Of a stretch of DNA of 35,052 nucleotides, positions 591 to 29,618 are shown one piece after another (position 1 is the stretch's first letter; each line of letters opens with the position of its first letter). The position numbers were made by a program, and so were the translations under genes. The stretch is taken from IMG/VR virus record IMGVR_UViG_3300043398_000349, positions 1-35,052 of that record, one strand, 5' to 3'. The stretch comes from a virus. Below the pieces are notes generated by a model. It worked only from the letters and a program-made list of their open reading frames with translations, had not been told where the DNA came from and searched no databases.

Positions 591-840
591 GAGCCGCCCG
601 CTCATCGTCGATGTGAATCGGCTTGAACTTAGTCATGGCCTTGGCTTTCGGGGAAACTACTCCATCAAGAACCGTTTTTGGGATCTCGTATTTTGTCGGC
701 TCTCCATTGACATACATCCCCCGCGCCTTCCTCATCCCCCAGGCGATCATCACGATTCGGTGGATTTCGGCGCCGAGCAATCCTGCAAGGAAGCCTCCGA
801 TTGCAGACCCGATAATATATTCGATGAATTGGCTTTCCAT
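532..840 (-). CDS. Small single-span membrane protein, end of the sugar operon
   Basis: The 102-residue product has one hydrophobic segment near its N-terminus (about residues 8-34, including IIGSAIGGFLAGLLGAEI) followed by a basic cytoplasmic-type tail. It starts at an ATG preceded by GGGGGAAG. The start lies 91 bp inside the 3' end of the acetyltransferase gene, so the two overlap in different frames. No family is recognised. Size and topology would allow a holin or a membrane accessory of the sugar pathway, but nothing in the sequence decides this. It is the last gene of the minus-strand run. Confidence 0.5.
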   Translation of the reverse strand: MESQFIEYIIGSAIGGFLAGLLGAEIHRIVMIAWGMRKARGMYVNGEPTKYEIPKTVLDGVVSPKAKAMTKFKPIHIDDERAALIEERALKANQKKDPIFPI

Positions 841-1433
841 TCTTCCCCCAGGATATCGACGAAAATGGAGTCGATAAATTTTCCGCCTTTAAAATACGCG
901 CGGCGGCGTAAACCGCCCAGTTTGAATCCTAACTTCTGGTACATGTCCAGGGCTGGGTTACCAGCAAGGACTTCACCATAAATCATCTCAATCGGGTAGT
1001 GGGTGAAGGCATGTTCGAGGAGCAAGGAGAGAGCCCCCTTCCCAAATCCTAGACCCTGCAGCTCCGGAGCGATATAGAGGGAGAACTCTGCATTCGAGTG
1101 TCCGAATCTGAGAGATGTTAACCCCGCAACGCCTACGATGCCCTGGGGATTGATCGAACGGTCACCGATGGTGCCACGGATAGCATACATTCGGATAGAA
1201 GGATCATCGGTTTGCCGTTGAAACCAGCAATTCTGCTCTATATCACTGATAAAATCATTTTGACGACACCAGGAATAAATCCGGGGATCATTCCGCCATT
1301 TGCGAATGGTGGGAACGTCCGTTGAATCTAGCGGGCCGAGACTGATATCAAACTTTATTTGCGCATCATCTGCGCTTTCGGTGGAACTGGCATTTTCCCC
1401 TCCAACCGCACCGCTCCCGACTTGATTTTCCAT
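750..1433 (-). CDS. GNAT N-acetyltransferase, PseH-like
   Basis: This 227-residue protein is a GNAT-fold acetyltransferase of the PseH/RimJ-like type. An IRKWRNDPRI segment after the N-terminal extension resembles the WRN motif of sugar-amine acetyltransferases. IAPELQGLGFGKGALSLLLE is the acetyl-CoA binding motif (Q/R-x-x-G-x-G/A), and LAGNPALDMYQKLGF is the usual C-terminal GNAT strand-helix. In nonulosonic acid pathways this enzyme acetylates the amino group placed on the 4-keto sugar by the aminotransferase. The ATG has a good GAGGAG site, and the gene overlaps the 3' end of the aminotransferase by 79 bp. The first 25 residues are low-complexity (Ser, Ala, Gly, Glu) and contain one copy of the CCAACCGCACC 11-mer. 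GNAT is sure; the exact substrate is inferred from the operon. Confidence 0.8.
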   Translation of the reverse strand: MENQVGSGAVGGENASSTESADDAQIKFDISLGPLDSTDVPTIRKWRNDPRIYSWCRQNDFISDIEQNCWFQRQTDDPSIRMYAIRGTIGDRSINPQGIVGVAGLTSLRFGHSNAEFSLYIAPELQGLGFGKGALSLLLEHAFTHYPIEMIYGEVLAGNPALDMYQKLGFKLGGLRRRAYFKGGKFIDSIFVDILGEEWKANSSNILSGLQSEASLQDCSAPKSTES

Positions 1434-2584
1434 ATGATCTCCTCAAACGTTCTAAAGTGGGTATCCGAATCAAGTTCAGCCAACGGGAAGTTATAAAACC
1501 AGCTCGGACCAAAAAGAAAGCCCGCTTTGCAGGCCTCCTGCCAGAAGAGAGCGCGGAAATTCTCATCACCCTCGAAGGCGCCGCGCGTTGGATACCCCTT
1601 GATGCGGATCAGCTCCGGGCAGAGGGTATTGAACCGGTCGAGCCAGGCCTGGCCCTTGCGCCAAAGATCTGACATAGAGAAGTCCGGCTCGCGCAAGAGG
1701 GCCAGCAGCGTTAGGGCTTGAGTCATGGCCAGCGTTTCGCCGAAGAAGGTGCCAGAAACGAAATACTTTGGGTTATCCATGATGTCTTTGCGGCCGCCAA
1801 CGACCGAGATGGGGTGACCAGCGCCAAGGGCTTTCCCCAGGCAAATGATATCGGGCTGGATGCCCCAATAGTTTGACACCGACATTTTCGGGAAGCGGAA
1901 TCCGGTGATGACTTCATCGAAGATAAGAAGCGCGCCCAATCTGGTGCATTCAGCCCGAAGCTGCTGCAACCATTCTTTTCTACTTTCGGAATGATCGAGA
2001 ACTACAGGCTCAACGATGACAGCCGCTAGATTGTTATCATCGACGTACAAATCGAGAGAATCACCTTGGCGAATCGAACCAATGCGATATTCTTCGGCGC
2101 GACTCGCTGGGACCCCAGCGGCTGGCGACTGGAGCGAGATGAAATCATCACCCCAACCGTGATACCCCTCGGAGAGAATGTAGGTGTTCCCGGTATAAGC
2201 CCTGGCGATGCGAATGGCGGCGTTGCAGGCCTCGGTGCCGGTCTTGAGAAATTTGAGCCGCTCAATGCAATGGAACGTAGCCTGGAGTTTTTCCGCCAGA
2301 AGAACCTCGGTCTTAGTCGGTAGGCTGATGCTCTGCGCCTCTGATGCGTCCGCACCACGCATTTGTCTTGCGCCGTATCCAATGAGGTTTGTCCCCAATC
2401 CCCCGATGAAATCGATATAGGTCATCCCGTCTACATCTTGGATATAAGGCCCATGGCCAAAGATCGCAGTTTGGGGATAGACACCATCGATGAATGTGGC
2501 GGGACGCTTGGAGTTGGTCAAAGCACCTTGGGCGATGCAGTTGTTGCGGCGATCAATCCAGTTCTGCGCGGTCTCAGTCCTCAC
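1355..2584 (-). CDS. Class III PLP-dependent aminotransferase (glutamate-1-semialdehyde aminotransferase family)
   Basis: The 409-residue protein belongs to the class III (GSA/ornithine-type) aminotransferases. The PLP-binding aspartate lies in LIFDEVITGFRF (D223), and the Schiff-base lysine lies in CLGKALGAGHPISVVGG (K251). FLKTGTEACNAAIRIARAY binds the cofactor phosphate. Members occur in surface-sugar clusters beside SpsF/NeuA-type cytidylyltransferases, where they aminate keto-sugars; the tetrapyrrole role is unlikely here. The start is a GTG that overlaps the TGA of the upstream cytidylyltransferase (GTGA), which indicates translational coupling. Canonical pseudaminic acid loci use a DegT/AHBA-type PseC instead, so the exact product sugar is uncertain. 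Confidence 0.85.
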   Translation of the reverse strand: MRTETAQNWIDRRNNCIAQGALTNSKRPATFIDGVYPQTAIFGHGPYIQDVDGMTYIDFIGGLGTNLIGYGARQMRGADASEAQSISLPTKTEVLLAEKLQATFHCIERLKFLKTGTEACNAAIRIARAYTGNTYILSEGYHGWGDDFISLQSPAAGVPASRAEEYRIGSIRQGDSLDLYVDDNNLAAVIVEPVVLDHSESRKEWLQQLRAECTRLGALLIFDEVITGFRFPKMSVSNYWGIQPDIICLGKALGAGHPISVVGGRKDIMDNPKYFVSGTFFGETLAMTQALTLLALLREPDFSMSDLWRKGQAWLDRFNTLCPELIRIKGYPTRGAFEGDENFRALFWQEACKAGFLFGPSWFYNFPLAELDSDTHFRTFEEIIWKIKSGAVRLEGKMPVPPKAQMMRK

Positions 2585-3297
2585 AGGCGATGCACCTTTC
2601 TCTTGCCATACTTCTTCAGGGCAAGTGATTCGACCTTAGAGATTTTTGCCAGCTCCGACCGCGCTATTTCAAGGTCTTCTGGCGTGTCGACTGACAGCTT
2701 GATCGCCGAACGGTCAAAATAGCCTATTACGGCACCCATTTTGGCCCAAGCCGGCATGTCTCTGGTAATCATGGTCGTGACATGCTCGCGGTCATAAGTA
2801 GTTCTCGCCTTGTTATTAATCCAGGCGAGCATCGCACCGCTCATGACCTCGCAATCCAATCCATCCTCGCTTGATCGGCACTGAGGGTCGACATTGGATA
2901 CGTAGTCATAGCGATTCTTCACCGCGATAGAGATGACTTTGGAAATGACATAGTCTGGGATTAGAGGACAATCGCCAGTGATCCGGCATACGAAATCGGC
3001 CGGACCGTGTATGTCAACGGCTTTGGCGTAGCGCGACAGCACGTCCTTTTCATCTCCCTCGACAATATCCACCCAACCTTCAAATGCTCTCACCAAGGGG
3101 TCACCGTGAGGGCAAAGCAAAAGAACCTGCGGCCTGATCGGGGGGTTTTTGTAGGTCTGCGCAATATAGATCGCTGACCTTTGGCACGTCCTGATGACAT
3201 GCTCCATGATCGTCTTGCCGCCTAAAAGCTCCATATGCTTATTAGGAAACCTGACCGAGGTAGATCTAGCCTGGATGCCAATCAGGACTTTTGACAT
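2581..3297 (-). CDS. CMP-sugar cytidylyltransferase (SpsF/NeuA/PseF-like)
   Basis: The 238-residue protein is a nucleotidyltransferase of the CTP-using SpsF/NeuA/PseF group. The N-terminal signature is IQARSTSVRFPNKHMELLGG, in which the R-x-x-S-x-R-x-P-x-K nucleotide loop is visible. CRITGDCPLIP carries the metal-binding aspartate region, and LSVDTPEDLE near the C-terminus is the typical sugar-side motif. In nonulosonic acid pathways this enzyme activates the nine-carbon acid as a CMP-sugar. Its ATG overlaps the end of the oxidoreductase gene by 16 bp, and its stop overlaps the GTG of the aminotransferase. Family assignment is strong; the choice between NeuA, PseF and SpsF is not resolved. 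Confidence 0.85.
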   Translation of the reverse strand: MSKVLIGIQARSTSVRFPNKHMELLGGKTIMEHVIRTCQRSAIYIAQTYKNPPIRPQVLLLCPHGDPLVRAFEGWVDIVEGDEKDVLSRYAKAVDIHGPADFVCRITGDCPLIPDYVISKVISIAVKNRYDYVSNVDPQCRSSEDGLDCEVMSGAMLAWINNKARTTYDREHVTTMITRDMPAWAKMGAVIGYFDRSAIKLSVDTPEDLEIARSELAKISKVESLALKKYGKRKVHRL

Positions 3298-3965
3298 GCG
3301 TCACCTGCGGGGTATCTCGTCGCTTGTTCGAAGGCCGCCACTTTCTTGTGCGCAGAAAGAATTGCTTCCGGACCCCAGAGATTTGGGCCAGGAAATGGAA
3401 CGAGGAAAGTTTTCATCATGCGAATATATGAGAAATCTACCGAGCTTCTATGAACCCATTGCCCATTGATCTGGCATTGCCAAACGGGGCTTTCGTTTCT
3501 GAGATGCCATTCTCCGCGAGCAAGATAGATCAACTGGATGCAATCCCAATTGAGCCCGTCCCTACCGCTGCAGCAATAATCGTATGAGGTAACGCCTTCA
3601 TGGTCGGGTATCAAGTCAGTGAATGAATAGTTGTTGACCATGAATGTTCTCTCAGAGAGACAAACAAGATTGGTCATCAATTCTTTGTTATATTCGTCAC
3701 TAGCCTTGGCAATAGGTTTTTCACAGAGAATCGGGGTATGCTTATGGACACCCAAACGCAGCATCATCAAGTTAGTTAGGTGCTGGTCCGTTGGGGATGT
3801 AATGATTATGTGGCTCAGACTGCGATCGGTAAAAAACCCATCCCATACAGAGTCCTTCAACATCGGATCATAACCAACGCTATCAAACCCTAGATGCTTG
3901 CAAATGGCGGCATAGCGCCTACCCATGTTCCCTTCGGATCCGATGATACCTACCTTGATCGTCAT
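3282..3965 (-). CDS. Gfo/Idh/MocA-type NAD(P)-binding oxidoreductase, short form
   Basis: The N-terminal VGIIGSEGNMGRRY is a Rossmann G-x-x-G-x-x-G loop, and ILCEKPIAK matches the conserved E-K-P motif of Gfo/Idh/MocA sugar oxidoreductases. The protein has 227 residues, about 100 fewer than usual for the family, so the C-terminal substrate domain is reduced. It may be a compact or degenerate form. The ATG overlaps the TGA of the upstream SDR gene (ATGA), so it is co-translated within the sugar operon. Related enzymes sit in legionaminic and other surface-sugar clusters. The exact step catalysed is unknown. Confidence 0.75.
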   Translation of the reverse strand: MTIKVGIIGSEGNMGRRYAAICKHLGFDSVGYDPMLKDSVWDGFFTDRSLSHIIITSPTDQHLTNLMMLRLGVHKHTPILCEKPIAKASDEYNKELMTNLVCLSERTFMVNNYSFTDLIPDHEGVTSYDYCCSGRDGLNWDCIQLIYLARGEWHLRNESPVWQCQINGQWVHRSSVDFSYIRMMKTFLVPFPGPNLWGPEAILSAHKKVAAFEQATRYPAGDACQKS

Positions 3966-4882
3966 TGAAGGCCTTTCAGCGCTCGCTCGATGAGTGTCTT
4001 CAGTTCTTTGCGCGACATGATTCGGTCATCTTGGTTGGAGAAGACACCCCGGCCAAGAACACCATTCTGCTCGGTCTCGTACTCAGTAGCCATGCATTCA
4101 TGGTATTTTTCGCCGGGCCTTTTTCCGATAGGCTTGCCGATCTCGTAGATTTTCACGCCGAGGACTTCGGCGGTGGCCTCGATGAAATCCAAAATGGCAC
4201 TAGATCTAATCCAATGCGGTATTTGCAGACCGTATCTCTCACCATAACCGCTCGAAATAACAAAATCCCTGGCGTCTTCCACGGTCCACCAAAAGCGCGT
4301 CATCTTGTAGTCGGTGACCGGAGCGGGGCGTTTGGCCTTTAATGCTTCAACCAGGTCGTGAAAATAGCTCATTCTTGAGCCGATTACGTTGCCATAACGC
4401 ACGACGGTGAAATCTTCATGGGCGAGAACAAGTTTCTCAGCCATCGCTTTCGCGGTGCCATACGCATTGATCGGGTATGCGGCCTTATCAGTAGAGACGT
4501 GAATCAGCCTAGCGAAGGTCTCTTTCGCGAGCCGAATCATATTCTCAGTCCCGCCTACGATCGATCGGTGGGCTGCGTGCGGTTGGAGTTCGAGCGTATC
4601 GACGCATTTATAAGCGGCGAAGTGGTAGATCTGATTGAAATGATGCCCCTCCCAGGCTTCTGTGGCCTGGGTCAGTGATCGGTAATCGGTCACGTCGCCA
4701 AGGCGGAGGGTGAGGCGGCGATCTCTAGGCATAAACCTTTGCTTCTGCTCGCAGCGGGATATGCCCATGATCGAGACATTGGGACCGCAGTCCTCCAAAA
4801 GGCGCCGACAAACCGCACGGCCGAGCGTGCCAGTGATGCCGGTAATCAGAATCTTCTGATGACCATGCTCAGACAAATTCAT
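3962..4882 (-). CDS. UDP-sugar 4,6-dehydratase of the PseB/CapD SDR family
   Basis: This 306-residue extended SDR enzyme shows the NAD(P) loop TGITGTLG (residues 14-21) and the catalytic stretch VSTDKAAYPINAYGTAKAMA, with D132, K133, Y141 and K145. It also has the MTRFWWTVEDA segment typical of PseB, FlaA1 and CapD-type proteins. These enzymes convert UDP-GlcNAc to a 4-keto-6-deoxy sugar, the first committed step of pseudaminic and related acids. It is the first gene of a five-gene chain joined by short overlaps (dehydratase, oxidoreductase, cytidylyltransferase, aminotransferase, acetyltransferase). The ATG has an AGGAT site three bases after the preceding stop. Family assignment is strong; whether it also epimerises C5 cannot be read from the sequence. 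Confidence 0.88.
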   Translation of the reverse strand: MNLSEHGHQKILITGITGTLGRAVCRRLLEDCGPNVSIMGISRCEQKQRFMPRDRRLTLRLGDVTDYRSLTQATEAWEGHHFNQIYHFAAYKCVDTLELQPHAAHRSIVGGTENMIRLAKETFARLIHVSTDKAAYPINAYGTAKAMAEKLVLAHEDFTVVRYGNVIGSRMSYFHDLVEALKAKRPAPVTDYKMTRFWWTVEDARDFVISSGYGERYGLQIPHWIRSSAILDFIEATAEVLGVKIYEIGKPIGKRPGEKYHECMATEYETEQNGVLGRGVFSNQDDRIMSRKELKTLIERALKGLQ

Positions 4883-5245: not shown

Positions 5246-6511
5246 TTAAATTTCGAAGGAAGCATCGATATACAATATATCGTTGAGGTCGAAGTCAGTA
5301 CCGATATAGTCACCGCTGTTGGCCACTTCCCCGATATAAATAGTTGTTGTCGATAGATCAGCCCGCAAAAATCCCCAAAGGTGTTTATAGTCAGACGCGG
5401 ACGAATCGTATTGAAGAATGCGAGCTACCCAGTACTTATCACTACCTGAGACTGGTAGAGCTGCTGCCACCGAATTAGGGATAGTAATGTTGATCGTTCC
5501 AGTGCCGGTCCCGTCGGCAGTGACGGTAATGCCCATTTTGAACTCAAAACCGTGTGAACCGACGTATCGGTAACGGGCGTATTGCGTCGAAAACGTACCC
5601 GTTCCACGGTTGCTAATTGATGGGGTAAACGTTGTCCAGCCCATCGACGTAACGCCCGTCCCCCCATTTGCTTCCGGCAACGTGCCGGTCACCCCAGTTG
5701 TCAGCGGCAGCCCGGTGCAGGAGGTCAAAGTGCCCGAGGAAGGCGTTCCTAGAACTGGTGTAGTTAAGACGGGGCTAGTGAAGGTCTTGTTCGTTGCCGT
5801 TTGCGCAAGTGCCAGATCCATCAGCGTCCCCGTCGCTGCCGGCAGCGTCCAGGCATAGGTGGACGCCGCAGCGGGGGGGAGAAGCGTTCCAGTGCCCGAG
5901 GATGACCCGTTTAAGGCGAGCTTGCCAGAATTGAAAGACTTAACCCCGGTGATGGTGTCGATTGAGGCAAGCGTCATCACCGTATCGGAGCTGCCCGGGA
6001 AAGCGAAGCTCGTTGAGTCGGTCCCCGTGAAGGTCAGAGAATTCGAGATCACTAAGGTCTTACCATCGGCGATGGTCAGCGTGGCGCTGGTAGCCGGTGC
6101 AGTGATCGTCACCTTGTTTATGGTCGAAGCCGTCGTCAACTTGCTGATCGAGAGATCTTTGGTCGCGTCGGTGTATCCGTTGAGCAAATCGTTGAAATTT
6201 TGCATCACTTGGGACTAAGTGACTGTTATCGTAGGGGTTTTTTATCCCCAACTTCTTGAGCTTCTTTCTTTCGCTCAAGGTCAGCGTACATTTTCACCCA
6301 CTGAGGGTGCCGGGCACTCTTGGGGGCTTATATTCCCTTTCGGGTTTCATCCCCTACGCGTTACGGTGGCCGAAGTTCGTTACCTCTTCGGCTTACCTCG
6401 GGATTGGCATCGCAGCTTTCCCCGATTTTGCCCAGTTTAGAGACGCCTCCCGTTTTAAGCGTCTGCCGAGGTTCCGTTCGTCAACGTATAGGTTAAGGAT
6501 GGCGCGGTCAT
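5246..6511 (-). CDS. Tail fibre protein, split gene: exon 1 6458-6511, exon 2 5246-6214, joined by group I intron splicing
   Basis: Exon 1 (ATG at 6511) encodes MTAPSLTYTLTNGTSADA and then runs into a stop inside the intron. Exon 2 continues SQVMQNFNDLLNGYTDATKD. The joined 340-residue protein has the usual N-terminus of phage fibres that attach to the tail by this module. Residues 150-210 carry the Thr/Gly-rich repeats common in fibres (TSPVLTTPVLGTPSSGTL, ATNKTF, EANGGTGVT), and the rest is a beta-rich receptor-binding or C-terminal domain. The ATG overlaps the TGA of the upstream ejection protein gene (ATGA) and has an AGGAGA site. Without splicing only an 18-residue peptide would be made, or a truncated fibre from the GTG/ATG at 6208/6205. 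Confidence 0.92.
6215..6457 (-). ncRNA. Group I intron (243 nt, no homing endonuclease) in the tail fibre gene
   Basis: The minus-strand RNA folds into a full group I core. P1: exon end AGACGCU pairs with the guide GGCGUCU (6441-6447), with the required U-G pair at the splice site. P10: GGGA (6448-6451) pairs with exon 2 UCCC. P3: CUGGGC (6430-6435) with GCCCGG (6310-6315). P4: UCGGG (6421-6425) with CCCGA (6398-6402), preceded by a CCAAU joint as in the T4 td intron. P6 and P6a: GGU/ACC and GCCGAAG (6386-6392) with CUUCGGC (6369-6375). P7: GCGUA (6355-6359) with UACGC (6284-6288). P8: CACCC/GGGUG (6295-6309). P9: CUUGAGC/GCUCAAG (6255-6279). The intron ends in G (6215). Extra hairpins between P7 and P3, such as CCCGAAAGGG, suggest subgroup IA. 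Confidence 0.95.
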
Positions 6512-23433: not shown

Positions 23434-23689
23434 CGCTGTAGTCCTCTTCCTGCGATTCAGGCAGATACCAAGTCATAACCGCATTTGATGGCCTTATCCA
23501 ACAAGGAAGATTTTGTTGTTCGGATGGCCCCTTATTTAGGTTGAAAGATTCCTTGATCTCGTCCCACTTCTTGCACATAGCGACCCTGTGCCTTTTAAAA
23601 TCGGCCATAAGGGTGGCGCGAGATGGGCTCTCGATCATCATCGAGTCCTTGTCACCCTGATCGTTTATCCATGCGCATAGAACTTTCAT
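23351..23689 (-). CDS. Hypothetical protein following the NeuB-type gene
   Basis: A 112-residue protein starting MKVLCAWINDQGDKDSMMIE, with a helical middle and a charged C-terminus. Its ATG overlaps the TGA of the NeuB-type gene (ATGA), with GGAGG upstream, so the two are translated together. The last 28 residues overlap the next gene and are rich in Asp, Arg and Lys, so part of the tail could be nonessential. No function is recognised. Confidence 0.5.
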   Translation of the reverse strand: MKVLCAWINDQGDKDSMMIESPSRATLMADFKRHRVAMCKKWDEIKESFNLNKGPSEQQNLPCWIRPSNAVMTWYLPESQEEDYSDDKDRSRAADKNKAARDHQRRIAASDW

Positions 23690-24753
23690 ATCAGGTGGGC
23701 CTCCGTGATCGTCTCTCCCTGAATTACCGCCCTGGCCAGAGTGCGCCCTTCCGGTGATTTATCTGTTCCCCAGGATGATGCTGGTATCCCGTTCGCTTGG
23801 GCCTCTGTTGCATCCTTGGCCCGGAAGAATCCGTAGTTGCGGTCGATCTCCAGGACCGCGCCCATGGGCATGTCGCGGATCGCTTTGGCACGGGGGCGCA
23901 CTATATGGCGGAAATCTGCTTCCGATGGTGCCGGCTTCCATTCAAACGGCTGACGTATTGCATCAACCATTCTGCGGAAATCTTCTGGCGGAAGGCTATG
24001 GCCCGCGTCGGGGAGATCAGCGGCGTGCCAAGCCGCTGCACGTGCTCTATGGAAGAGCTGTTCGCAAATGAAGTGCTTCTCGATGACTTGCGCGTTCTTG
24101 GCTGCGAAAACAGGGACACCCAGGACATCGAGACTATGGTCGGAGAGGCCGATGTTATCCCCAAAGCTGAAATGGTGAGTCAGCATTCGCATCTTTCTCA
24201 GGTCATGGTCGAAGGATGGGTAAGCTGCGTTGCAGTAGAGAGTGAAGAAATCTAAATTACATATCTCATCCTTTCGGAAAAGAATGGCTTCCAGCTTATC
24301 CATTTCTTCTTCATCCAATCCACCGGCTGAGATGAAGAAGGGCTTGCCGAGCCTTTGCACGTGCTCTATGAGGCGGGTATTCGTATTGTCGCTCGACGCG
24401 ATCTTGTGCGCCTTCACATACGGATCTACCGCGTTGTAACCTTCAATGCTGAAGGCCGTGCACATGAAGTCCACGTTGCTGCGCTCGCAGTGCTTTGCAA
24501 GCTTTGGCAGCCAAAGAGGATCAAGAGCGTGCGGTTCGAGGTCCGTTTTGCCGTTGTCATGTCCATAACGATTACCCTTCGGCCCGTATAGATCGGCATT
24601 TGTAAATAACTGAAACTTAACAGCGTTAGCGCCAGCCAATGACGCTTGCTCGATCGACATCATGCAGTCGTCTAGCGTTATCCAATTCGATCCAACCTCT
24701 GCGATGATATATGGCTTTGCACTTAAGATTTTGCGGAAATGTTTGGATGACAA
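23686..24753 (-). CDS. NeuB-family nonulosonic acid synthase (PseI/NeuB/LegI-like)
   Basis: The protein has a NeuB TIM-barrel domain and a C-terminal SAF (antifreeze-like) domain. Motifs are YIIAEVGSNW, ANAVKFQLF, KIASSDNTNTRLIEHVQRLG, FFISAGG, GLSDHSLDVLG and AQVIEKHF. The SAF part reads VRPRAKAIRDMPMGAVL and ends EGRTLARAVIQGETITEAHL. These enzymes condense a six-carbon amino sugar with phosphoenolpyruvate to give the nine-carbon acid. The TTG at 24753 is preferred because AGAGGAG lies five bases upstream, giving 355 residues. The frame also extends to 24834 through a copy of the capsid N-terminus. The gene is 19 kb from the other sugar genes. Confidence 0.88.
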   Translation of the reverse strand: MSSKHFRKILSAKPYIIAEVGSNWITLDDCMMSIEQASLAGANAVKFQLFTNADLYGPKGNRYGHDNGKTDLEPHALDPLWLPKLAKHCERSNVDFMCTAFSIEGYNAVDPYVKAHKIASSDNTNTRLIEHVQRLGKPFFISAGGLDEEEMDKLEAILFRKDEICNLDFFTLYCNAAYPSFDHDLRKMRMLTHHFSFGDNIGLSDHSLDVLGVPVFAAKNAQVIEKHFICEQLFHRARAAAWHAADLPDAGHSLPPEDFRRMVDAIRQPFEWKPAPSEADFRHIVRPRAKAIRDMPMGAVLEIDRNYGFFRAKDATEAQANGIPASSWGTDKSPEGRTLARAVIQGETITEAHLI

Positions 24754-24786
24754 AGTGTCTCCTCTTGATTGTGGCTCCGGGTAAAA

Positions 24787-24834
24787 ATAGTTCTTCTGCG
24801 TGGCGGCAGCGATCTGGTCATAGGTCAGAGCCAA
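24787..24834 (-). repeat. Copy of the capsid gene 5' end, in frame with the NeuB-type gene
   Basis: This 48-bp segment matches the first 48 bases of the capsid gene (18266-18313) with four changes, one of which turns the ATG into TTG. It would encode MALTYDQIAAATQKNY if TTG is used, and it continues in frame into the synthase. The capsid gene's own ribosome site is not copied. It marks a past recombination or insertion event. Confidence 0.9.
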
Positions 24835-25044: not shown

Positions 25045-25449
25045 CTACTCTTCCTTCGCCGAACTACTCGTCATCTCGACTTTCTCCCCGCTTATGCGCT
25101 CTATCGTAAGCTTGTGCACAGCGCCCCCCGCATCCAAAGGCTGGGGCATCACTTTCCCACACAGCCGCTCTATCAACGGCAGGAGCTTCGTTATATCACC
25201 ATGGTTCGAGGCGTTGATCATCGTGCGCGCTAGTACCTTCTCGATCATCGGGATGTCCATCGCATCCTTAATCTTGTTCACCAGCTCGTGCGTCATTCGC
25301 AAATATTTAGAGATTAAGCGCTTCATCTCGGCGTCGTCCAGGTCTTTTATTCCCTTCAGAGAGTCGGGGATTTTAGGCCTTCCCCCAGGATTACCTGACT
25401 GACCCTTCTTGAATCTATACTCAGCCGGCGGGCCTTTAGGATTAGCCAT
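25045..25449 (-). CDS. Small terminase-like protein (DUF5681-type N-terminus)
   Basis: A 134-residue protein. The N-terminal RFKKGQSGNPGGRPKIPDSL is the signature of the DUF5681-type motif found in small terminase candidates and related phage proteins. A helical DNA-binding type domain follows (EMKRLISKYLRMTHELVNKI), with a charged C-terminal tail. It precedes the other packaging genes and starts inside the end of the methyltransferase gene (8-bp overlap). The motif is clear; a terminase small subunit role is inferred from order. Confidence 0.65.
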   Translation of the reverse strand: MANPKGPPAEYRFKKGQSGNPGGRPKIPDSLKGIKDLDDAEMKRLISKYLRMTHELVNKIKDAMDIPMIEKVLARTMINASNHGDITKLLPLIERLCGKVMPQPLDAGGAVHKLTIERISGEKVEMTSSSAKEE

Positions 25450-26659
25450 TCCCTGAACCCTCGCCTGTGCTGAGAATTGCCTTCTTACCTGTGAAGTTCT
25501 CCCAACGGGTTATGATGACGTCGCAGTAGTGAGGATCTATCTCCATGCCGTAGCAGGTGCGGTTGGTCTTCTCGCAGGCGATTAGGGTGGAGCCGGAGCC
25601 AGAAAACGGTTCGTAGACAACCTCTCCTGTTATGGTGTGGTTGGTTATACTCGGCGCCAAAAGATCAACGGGCTTCTGCGTCGGATGGATTTTGTCATTC
25701 TCTCTTGAGCATTCCCAAACCGTAGACTGGTTACGTTCACCATAAAACTCTGGCTCATTCCCTTGAAGCCAGCCCATAAGGCAAAGCTCGTGTCGCCAGT
25801 GGTAATGCCCGCGACCGAATACAAATTGGGGCTTGACCCAAATAATTTGCCGGTGAAAAAGTATTCCTGCTGCTGCTGCTGCTGCTGCTGCTGTATATCC
25901 TTGCATCTTCATTGCATGCCACATGTAGAAGGCGAATCCTTTCTTCATGTGTGGAAGAGACGCGCTGATCACAGCAAATATAAAGTCTTTGAACTCGTCA
26001 TCCTTAAGATCATCGTTGGCTATTTTCGCATAGCCTTTCGATTGTCCTTTTTCGTTTGAAACCTCCACGTGATTGATACCGTATGGCGGGTCGGAAAGCC
26101 AAACGGAGGCCTTCACCCCGCCCATAAGTCGCTCAACGCAAAGCACATCAGTGCTATCACCACAGAGCAGCCGATGATCGCCGAGCTGCCATAGATCGCC
26201 TAGTTGACATCGTGTTTCAACGACCTCCGGAACCGCGTCATCATCGGTCATCCCCTCCTTTGATACCTTGGGCCGGATCTTTTCTCGCTCTTTGTCATCC
26301 CAACCAAATTGGTCCATCTCCCATCCATCTTTCTCCAACTGATCAAGAGCCCCGGTCAGCTCGTCAACGTCCCATTCGGCTAGCTCAGCGGCTCGGTTAT
26401 CCAGGATCGCAAAAAGCTCTGCCCTTCCTGGATCCAGCGCGGTTCGGTGCACCCAAATCTCTTTCCAGCCGAGAAGCTTCGCTGCGGCGAGTGTGCCGTT
26501 GCCGGCGATAACCGTGTTGCCTGCATCGATAACAATCGGTTTCTGCTGCCCGCATTCTTCGAGCGATTTCTTGATCACATTCAAGTTTCGCTTGGAATGT
26601 TTTCGCGCGTTCTTTGGCAGTGGTTTTAGATCAGCAATCGCTACGGATTCGAAGTTCAC
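25442..26659 (-). CDS. ParB-like plus N4/N6 DNA methyltransferase (orphan)
   Basis: The 405-residue protein combines a ParB/RepB-type N-terminal domain (residues 1-120; NARKHSKRNLNVIKKSLEE, VIAGNGTLAAAKLLGW) with a beta-class DNA methyltransferase. The catalytic motif is SDPPYG (residues 189-194), and the S-adenosylmethionine motif FSGSGST (352-358) follows it. Such proteins methylate adenine N6 or cytosine N4 in phage genomes without a partner nuclease. Residues 257-264 are a run of eight alanines encoded by a CTG/CAG microsatellite. The start is a GTG with a weak GGAA site. No restriction enzyme gene is adjacent, so protection against host restriction is the likely role. Confidence 0.88.
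   Translation of the reverse strand: MNFESVAIADLKPLPKNARKHSKRNLNVIKKSLEECGQQKPIVIDAGNTVIAGNGTLAAAKLLGWKEIWVHRTALDPGRAELFAILDNRAAELAEWDVDELTGALDQLEKDGWEMDQFGWDDKEREKIRPKVSKEGMTDDDAVPEVVETRCQLGDLWQLGDHRLLCGDSTDVLCVERLMGGVKASVWLSDPPYGINHVEVSNEKGQSKGYAKIANDDLKDDEFKDFIFAVISASLPHMKKGFAFYMWHAMKMQGYTAAAAAAAAGILFHRQIIWVKPQFVFGRGHYHWRHELCLMGWLQGNEPEFYGERNQSTVWECSRENDKIHPTQKPVDLLAPSITNHTITGEVVYEPFSGSGSTLIACEKTNRTCYGMEIDPHYCDVIITRWENFTGKKAILSTGEGSGNG
25867..25893 (-). repeat. Trinucleotide microsatellite (CTG)9
   Basis: Nine perfect CTG units on the plus strand encode eight alanines (residues 257-264) within the methyltransferase domain, after the DPPY motif. Slippage by whole units would change only the length of the alanine run and keep the frame. 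Confidence 0.95.
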
Positions 26660-28139: not shown

Positions 28140-29618
28140 TTATCGCGTTCCGCGCCAATCGTTCGACGGGGCGAAGGGGTCGGTGGTCGGCGACAGCCGC
28201 CGAATCCTGATTCCGTGATAAAGCTTGGGCCTGGGTGCTTCCTGAGACTCGGGATCGCGCGGAGCGTTGCGCCTGGTTACGCCGTTACGTCGCAGAAATT
28301 CCCGGCAGAGCTGTTGGTCGCGGTACTCGGTGAACGTCGCAGCGATCTTCGCCTCTAGGACCTTTGGCTCGAGCATGTCCTTGGTCCCCTTCGCTTCGCT
28401 GGCATCGACGAACTCGAGGCCTGCCGATCCCATCCAAATGCGGAACCGGTCATCTTTGATCCCCGCCTCCCCCGCGAGGGTCTCTCGGCTATCCTCCGAG
28501 GTGGGGATCGGGCCATGGTCCGGACATAGACGCTGATAGGCATCCCGACATCGATGCAGGATCACCGCCCGCTCCTCCCAGAGGTCGTCCTCGTATGAAG
28601 CGCTGTGATCACCCAGTTCACCGTAGCTCTTAATAGAAACGAAAATAGGCCGCCTCTGGTTCGATTTGGTGTCTGAGAGGTTTGGAAACCGGTTCGAGGT
28701 GAATATGAGCCGCCAGGTGGCCGGCGTGTCGAATGGCTCGCCACCGAGTGGACGTACCGGGTAATTGTCCCCCCCCGTCAGCATTTTCATGGCTGTGGTA
28801 TCAAGTGACTGGAAGTTTTCGAAGTCCGAAAAGATCAGAGCACGCTTGCCGACGAATGATGTACTCTCGTGCCGATCCTCTCCCGGAGGCTTGGCCAGGT
28901 TTAAGACATTGGCCAAGCCCAATATCCTACGCACGAACCGCACGAATGCACCCTTACCGTCGTTACCCTCTCCCTGGATCCAGAGGTAATGCTGCAAATA
29001 GGCTTTGGGCTCAAGCAACGACCAGATGAAAGCCTCCAGCGCGTCAGCATTACCGTTCGTTATGCGCGAGAGAAACTCCTCCCACAGCGAGCAGGTCCCA
29101 GGCCATGGGTCGAAATCGAGGCGATGAAACGCGACCCCAGGCGTGGATTTAAAAGCGATTGGTACAGGTGTTTCCGAAATCTCGACGTTATCCAACCAGT
29201 AATTCATCGCTGCCCCATTCTGCGCGCTCGTGAAGCGGTAGCGCATCGATTGGGTGAGCGAGAGCTGTCGGGCATAACGAGCGATCAACCGGCGGGTTTC
29301 GACATCATCCAACCGCACCGCTGTTTGGAATGGCTTATCGCCTTCAATCTTGATCGGGCCAAGCCCCTTCAGATGATAGGTCGCTTCGATCGTGAAATCC
29401 GGATCGGGAAACCCGGGGTCTTTTACGATGCTGCGGGTTAGACCCAGAAACATCCCTTCGTAAAGATCAGCCGCAGTCGGTTCCGGATCGGGCTTAGGCT
29501 TATCCGTCTCGCTCTCGCCATCTTTTGCCTTACCGGAACCGCGCTTATTTCCAGGGGGTTTTTTAAACTCGCGAACATTTGTTTCTTCCACCTTGACTTC
29601 AGGTAATATCTCATCCAT
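28140..29618 (-). CDS. Replicative helicase of the D5/SF3-like (DUF5906) type
   Basis: The 492-residue protein has a Walker A loop WIQGEGNDGKGAF (GEGNDGKG at residues 216-223), a Walker B-like LIFSDFENF (261-269) and the sensor segment WRLIFTSNRFPNLS (302-315). These match phage- and plasmid-type D5/DUF5906 helicases that open an origin for their own primase. The N-terminal 50 residues are a charged, Pro/Lys-rich linker. It follows the primase gene by 66 bp and ends before a strong terminator and the repeat cluster. The ATG has a GGAG site. One 11-mer copy lies within it (29309). Confidence 0.85.
   Translation of the reverse strand: MDEILPEVKVEETNVREFKKPPGNKRGSGKAKDGESETDKPKPDPEPTAADLYEGMFLGLTRSIVKDPGFPDPDFTIEATYHLKGLGPIKIEGDKPFQTAVRLDDVETRRLIARYARQLSLTQSMRYRFTSAQNGAAMNYWLDNVEISETPVPIAFKSTPGVAFHRLDFDPWPGTCSLWEEFLSRITNGNADALEAFIWSLLEPKAYLQHYLWIQGEGNDGKGAFVRFVRRILGLANVLNLAKPPGEDRHESTSFVGKRALIFSDFENFQSLDTTAMKMLTGGDNYPVRPLGGEPFDTPATWRLIFTSNRFPNLSDTKSNQRRPIFVSIKSYGELGDHSASYEDDLWEERAVILHRCRDAYQRLCPDHGPIPTSEDSRETLAGEAGIKDDRFRIWMGSAGLEFVDASEAKGTKDMLEPKVLEAKIAATFTEYRDQQLCREFLRRNGVTRRNAPRDPESQEAPRPKLYHGIRIRRLSPTTDPFAPSNDWRGTR

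Follow-up and report, generated by a model that had tools for sequence, protein, structure and literature searches.

Group I splicing consists of two transesterifications that are started by guanosine, with the exons aligned by the helices P1 and P10. Several of the group I introns of phages T4, Twort and SPO1 carry homing genes. According to passages of one paper, phage introns are biased towards genes for nucleotide metabolism and DNA (PMC11878797). Structural genes are also interrupted, for instance the capsid genes of LittleE and Tuc2009 (as given in passages of PMC3706429) and the tail tube gene orf142 of Twort (passages of PMC11878797). Mycobacteriophages BAKA and Optimus possess a 265-bp intron in a minor tail gene, described in passages of the same report as RT-PCR-verified and without a homing gene (PMC3706429).

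The window analyzed here is the whole of virus record IMGVR_UViG_3300043398_000349, an entire assembly of 35,052 bases, in which the element lies on the minus strand. A 243-nt interruption (6457-6215) separates codon 18 (GCT, Ala) from codon 19 (TCC, Ser) of a fibre-like gene:

6458-6511, minus strand: exon 1, 18 codons (MTAPSLTYTLTNGTSADA), followed by an in-frame TAA; placed from the sequence and the end of the upstream open reading frame at 6508
6215-6457, minus strand: group I intron, 243 nt, apparently IA-like, starting with TAA (an in-frame stop) and ending in G, without a homing endonuclease reading frame
5246-6214, minus strand: exon 2, codons 19-340 (SQVMQNFNDLLNGYTD...), stop codon at 5246-5248; placed from intronless homologues

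Exon 1 begins with an ATG that is preceded by AGGAG and shares bases with the upstream gene's TGA stop (ATGA). With the 5′ splice site after 6458 and the 3′ splice site before 6214, the predicted junction joins GACGCT to TCCCAAGTG, so that GCT meets TCC. Removal of the intron joins the exons in frame, and the joined frame, which encodes a restored protein of 340 amino acids (MTAPSLTYTLTNGTSADA-SQVMQNFN...), matches intronless homologues exactly. An earlier note on this DNA had given these coordinates, boundaries and 243-nt length together with a U-G pair, a terminal G, a P10 and a restored frame; all proved correct on recheck.

For the fibre-like protein, Pfam and PDB contain no match and PHROGs gives only a weak one, to a virion structural protein family (E 3e-5), so the name "tail fibre" is taken from how its relatives are built. 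Proteins that share this protein's N-terminal motif differ in their C-termini, and L129, which is among them, has matches to families of tail fibres and tail proteins. The label "tail-fibre-like" therefore seems reasonable. The upstream 714-aa protein, called an ejection gene in the earlier note, yielded no family match in profile searches, and searches for relatives of the portal and of this 714-aa protein found none.

An apparent nonulosonic (pseudaminic-like) acid pathway adjoins the fibre gene at 750-4882 and has a further member at 23686-24834, all on the minus strand. Each of its members scores below the NCBIfam cut-off:

3962-4882, minus strand: PseB-like dehydratase
1355-2584, minus strand: class III aminotransferase
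2581-3297, minus strand: cytidylyltransferase
750-1433, minus strand: PseH-like acetyltransferase
23686-24834, minus strand: NeuB/PseI-like synthase, distant from the others and near the packaging genes

A phage with sugar synthesis genes may alter the host surface or its own virion. Elsewhere in the window, the minus-strand gene at 25442-26659 encodes a DNA methyltransferase (PHROGs E 3e-127; Pfam N6_N4_Mtase) with a ParB-like domain at its N-terminus.

The interrupting RNA contains the group I core P3-P4-P6-P7-P8 with the P3/P7 pseudoknot. Its pairings, all on the minus strand, are as follows:

6458-6464: exon side of P1, AGACGCU, final U opposite G at the 5′ splice site
6441-6447: guide side of P1, GGCGUCU
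6448-6451: guide side of P10, GGGA, just upstream of the P1 guide; pairs with UCCC (6214-6211), the first four bases of exon 2
6430-6435 with 6310-6315: P3, CUGGGC with GCCCGG, covariation in 5 of 6 pairs
6398-6425: P4 (6421-6425 with 6398-6402) and P5 (6415-6416 with 6407-6408)
6365-6397: P6 (6395-6397 with 6365-6367) and P6a (6386-6392 with 6369-6375)
6284-6359: P7, the guanosine-binding helix, GCGUA 6355-6359 with UACGC 6284-6288; encloses P7.1, P7.2, P3′ and P8
6323-6354: P7.1 (6351-6354 with 6323-6326) and P7.2 (6342-6344 with 6335-6337), a hallmark of IA
6295-6309: P8, 6305-6309 with 6295-6299
6231-6279: P9 (6273-6279 with 6255-6261) and a P9.2-like hairpin (6246-6252 with 6231-6237)

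Every helix listed in the earlier note (P1, P3, P4, P6/P6a, P7, P8 and P9) was found, and P5, P7.1, P7.2 and the P9.2-like hairpin were found beyond that list. In P1, a 7-bp helix that is possible at only 74 of about 70,000 window positions, six pairs are Watson-Crick and the seventh is the U-G at the 5′ splice site; the 3′ end of the intron reads ...CACUUAG, with the terminal G. The P1 and P10 pairings are independent of homology, since the exon sequence differs from the exons of the intron's relatives. Two minor irregularities occur: an A-C mismatch in P5, alongside two standard pairs, and a single U-U mismatch in P9.2. A plain minimum-energy fold shows only part of the core, as expected because the RNA is pseudoknotted. 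Between P7 and P3′ lie P7.1 and P7.2, the latter weakly aligned, and their occurrence speaks for the IA subgroups. These two helices are counted among the classifying elements of group I introns in passages of a 2014 review (PMC3984707). The structure of the intron is thus group IA-like as far as its predicted fold tells; the IA2 subgroup appears heterogeneous in passages of PMC11878797.

Comparison with phage records by blastn found several unrelated phages in which most of the intron aligns at 67-76% identity; the matches in known phages include a Sextaecvirus tape measure gene (E 1e-11) and, in Bacillus phage PJN02, a gene for a RecD-like helicase (E 3e-7). Core-pattern scans of viral contigs yielded additional relatives. 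Where the interrupted gene is legible, it codes for a known phage protein, among them a RecD-like helicase (L002), the Sextaecvirus tape measure (L004-L006) and the large subunit of terminase (L090). A further clade member (223 bits), at 2208-2600 of L099 (IMG/VR contig 3300005613_003912), seems to split a tRNA-Leu(UAA) gene in its anticodon stem. ARAGORN detects this tRNA only once 254 nt are removed, and the putatively viral contig carries about 20 tRNA genes. By 2014, the phage introns seen were all in protein genes, as stated in passages of the review of that year (PMC3984707).

The group I structure was drawn from the window and its pairs were counted on an alignment of the window with 15 relatives (16 sequences), mostly unverified metagenomic or unannotated introns. 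Standard pairs occupy 97.6% of the 875 cells (56 pairs) vs 75.8% in shuffled and 31-45% in slid versions, the slid control being biased in favour of a structure that came from the window; covariation among the other fifteen is unaffected by this bias. Changes on both sides occur in 35 of the 56 pairs, a count reached by none of 500 shuffles. P3, for instance, varies from UCGGGC/GUCCGA to GAAACC/GGUUUC with every pair kept, and the cells of P3 and P7 are 100% paired across the 16 sequences, with covariation. P7.1 covaries in four of its five pairs (98.8% of cells paired), and covariation is also found in P7, P6a, P8, P9 and P9.2.

A covariance model was then built from the fifteen relatives with the window left out. 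It matches the window at 6442-6224 over the full model length with 202.8 bits and an E-value of 8.6e-58; E-values from the short calibration are rough, and 202.8 bits equals the relatives' own scores. The match is far beyond chance, and the model gives no second match elsewhere in the window at E up to 10. Independent evidence upholds the group I reading and the exact exon junction put forward in the earlier note: homology to phage introns, covariation, the window-free model and intronless fibre homologues.

That note had proposed a match to the Rfam group I model RF00028 as a check. Nothing in the window reaches its gathering score of 50, and the stretch gives 15.2 bits (E 0.37), because RF00028 scores the clade of this intron poorly. 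A joint 65-kb scan with RF00028 reported none of ten relative loci at E up to 1. These ten (L002, L003, L004, L007, L091, L092, L099, L104, L223 and L225) score about 190-223 bits in the clade model. In single-record scans, RF00028 gave 28.4 bits to L099 and 28.6 bits to the verified BAKA intron, against the gathering score of 50. The low score reflects the reach of the model and is not a biological defining feature; the conclusion that no intron is present, which Rfam alone would suggest, was rejected after the clade model. The authors of PMC11878797 state in a passage that phage variants may escape current models. A compact, IA-like clade of phage introns supported by covariation is therefore missed by the Rfam group I model or placed far below its threshold, with the consequence that the annotated start of carrier genes is wrong or truncated. 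In this window, the fibre gene would be called from the GTG at 6208, minus its conserved N-terminus.

Intronless homologues define the junction at the protein level. The uninterrupted sequence, ADA followed directly by (S/T)QVM, occurs in at least 111 viral-contig stretches (pattern ADA[S/T]QVMxN[F/Y]N). Close homologues are continuous across it at 87% (L016/L106), 80% (L020/L107) and 82% (L108) identity, the junction reading MAAPSLTYTLTNGSTADASQVMQNFNDLLNGYTD in L016/L106 and MPAPSVTYTLTNGTTADASQVMQNFNDLINGMSD in L020/L107. This confirms the claimed joining of ADA to SQVMQNF. Fibre homologues lacking the exon 1 residues had been named as grounds for dismissing the intron; the opposite was found, as close relatives have these residues. 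None of 99 fibre-type loci contains an intron of the clade model, and a second intron at the same junction was found neither in viral contigs nor in 84,980 prokaryote genomes. Three viral pattern matches at the junction were set aside, as the fibres are uninterrupted and their TAACA is fortuitous. The insertion is present in one genome only, while more than 100 relatives are without it, and its site appears new, not being met elsewhere in the collections searched. Within the N-terminal part of the gene, conservation is highest at this site; phage group I introns usually occupy conserved stretches, according to passages of PMC3984707.

Taken together, the best explanation is a group I intron that excises itself to restore the fibre-like protein and is most likely near-neutral, a reading to which we assign a probability of about 0.95. 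Judging from its sequence, the intron almost certainly excises itself from the transcript. P1 would set the last U of exon 1 opposite the guide G, and a guanosine held in P7 would attack at the 5′ splice site. The freed exon 1 would then attack after the terminal G, with P10 aligning exon 2, and the joining of GCT to TCC would yield the 340-aa protein. Translation of unspliced RNA would stop at the first intron codon, UAA, giving an 18-residue peptide and keeping ribosomes out of the ribozyme core. Because this codon is an in-frame stop, the full-length protein would need splicing, or else a weak internal start without a visible ribosome-binding site. The 243 nt leave no room for a homing endonuclease, and the scanned window proteins match no endonuclease family. 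A near-neutral insertion is the simplest account, since there is no endonuclease gene and no second example at the site; we infer that the element is most likely mobile or formerly mobile, its endonuclease gene lost or never present, and not a regulator.

A regulatory switch, in which splicing efficiency, tied to exon 1 translation and the growth state of the host, times or limits fibre production, is improbable. The intron opens with an in-frame stop and exon 1 begins at the ATGA overlap with the upstream gene, so that translation would end at the splice site; moreover, splicing is translation-dependent in T4 introns, and a regulatory role of phage introns has been suggested (passages of PMC11878797). 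However, these sequence features are no more than all such introns have, and more than 100 relatives manage without an insertion that is confined to one genome. The earlier note's suggestion that splicing could control fibre expression, while possible, is speculation that the analysis does not support. A conditional switch on adsorption proteins, by which phages from poorly growing hosts would bear fewer fibres or none, is a little less probable still.

Another possibility is that the core is intact and splicing dead or inefficient, exon 2 being translated from the GTG at 6208 or the ATG at 6205 into a fibre minus its first 20-21 residues. An open reading frame with a GTG and an ATG near its start does open directly behind the intron, but these codons are preceded by TAACAGTCACTTAGTCCCAAGTGATG, which contains no Shine-Dalgarno-like sequence. 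All core helices are intact, and exon 1 has kept both the conserved motif and a coupled start, the predicted N-terminal peptide of the spliced product being MTAPSLTYTLTNGTSADASQVM. Such internal initiation is therefore quite unlikely. An unrelated structured RNA between two genes, such as an attenuator, terminator or cis element, would suit the strong fold and a position between the open reading frames as usually called. Nevertheless, covariation and the covariance model assign the element to the group I clade and intronless homologues put both flanks in one gene, which refutes this reading and leaves it a negligible chance.

The self-splicing intron proposed here can be set against several known systems. 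The introns of T4 (td, nrdB, nrdD), Twort and SPO1 share its ribozyme class and splicing chemistry and also interrupt phage protein genes; they belong to other branches, since their scores in the clade model are poor or nil (T4 15.8 bits, Twort 29.4 bits, SPO1 none). The Sextaecvirus tape-measure introns (L004-L006) and L223-L225 belong to the same clade (about 200-210 bits), and are likewise compact, have the same arrangement of P7.1 and P7.2, and interrupt a structural gene. They differ from the window in their host gene, the tape measure, and are identified by similarity only, the records consulted annotating no intron. The intron of BAKA and Optimus resembles that of the window in interrupting a virion tail gene, in having no homing endonuclease gene, and in its similar length, exon 1 U and final intron G. 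The window-free model finds it in BAKA at 28227-28431 (35.2 bits, E 1.9e-8), within the published 28186-28450 (PMC3706429). It is unlike the window's intron in its gene, site and distant sequence, and its splicing is proven, whereas here splicing is deduced from the sequence. The location stressed in the earlier note stands insofar as no earlier report of a tail fibre gene intron was found in the open-access literature searched by titles, abstracts and passages, and is softened by this minor tail intron (PMC3706429). The element is thus a group I intron of a known kind in a type of gene for which no earlier report was found, and a tail-fibre-like gene joins the list of interrupted phage genes, contrary to the bias reported in passages of PMC11878797.
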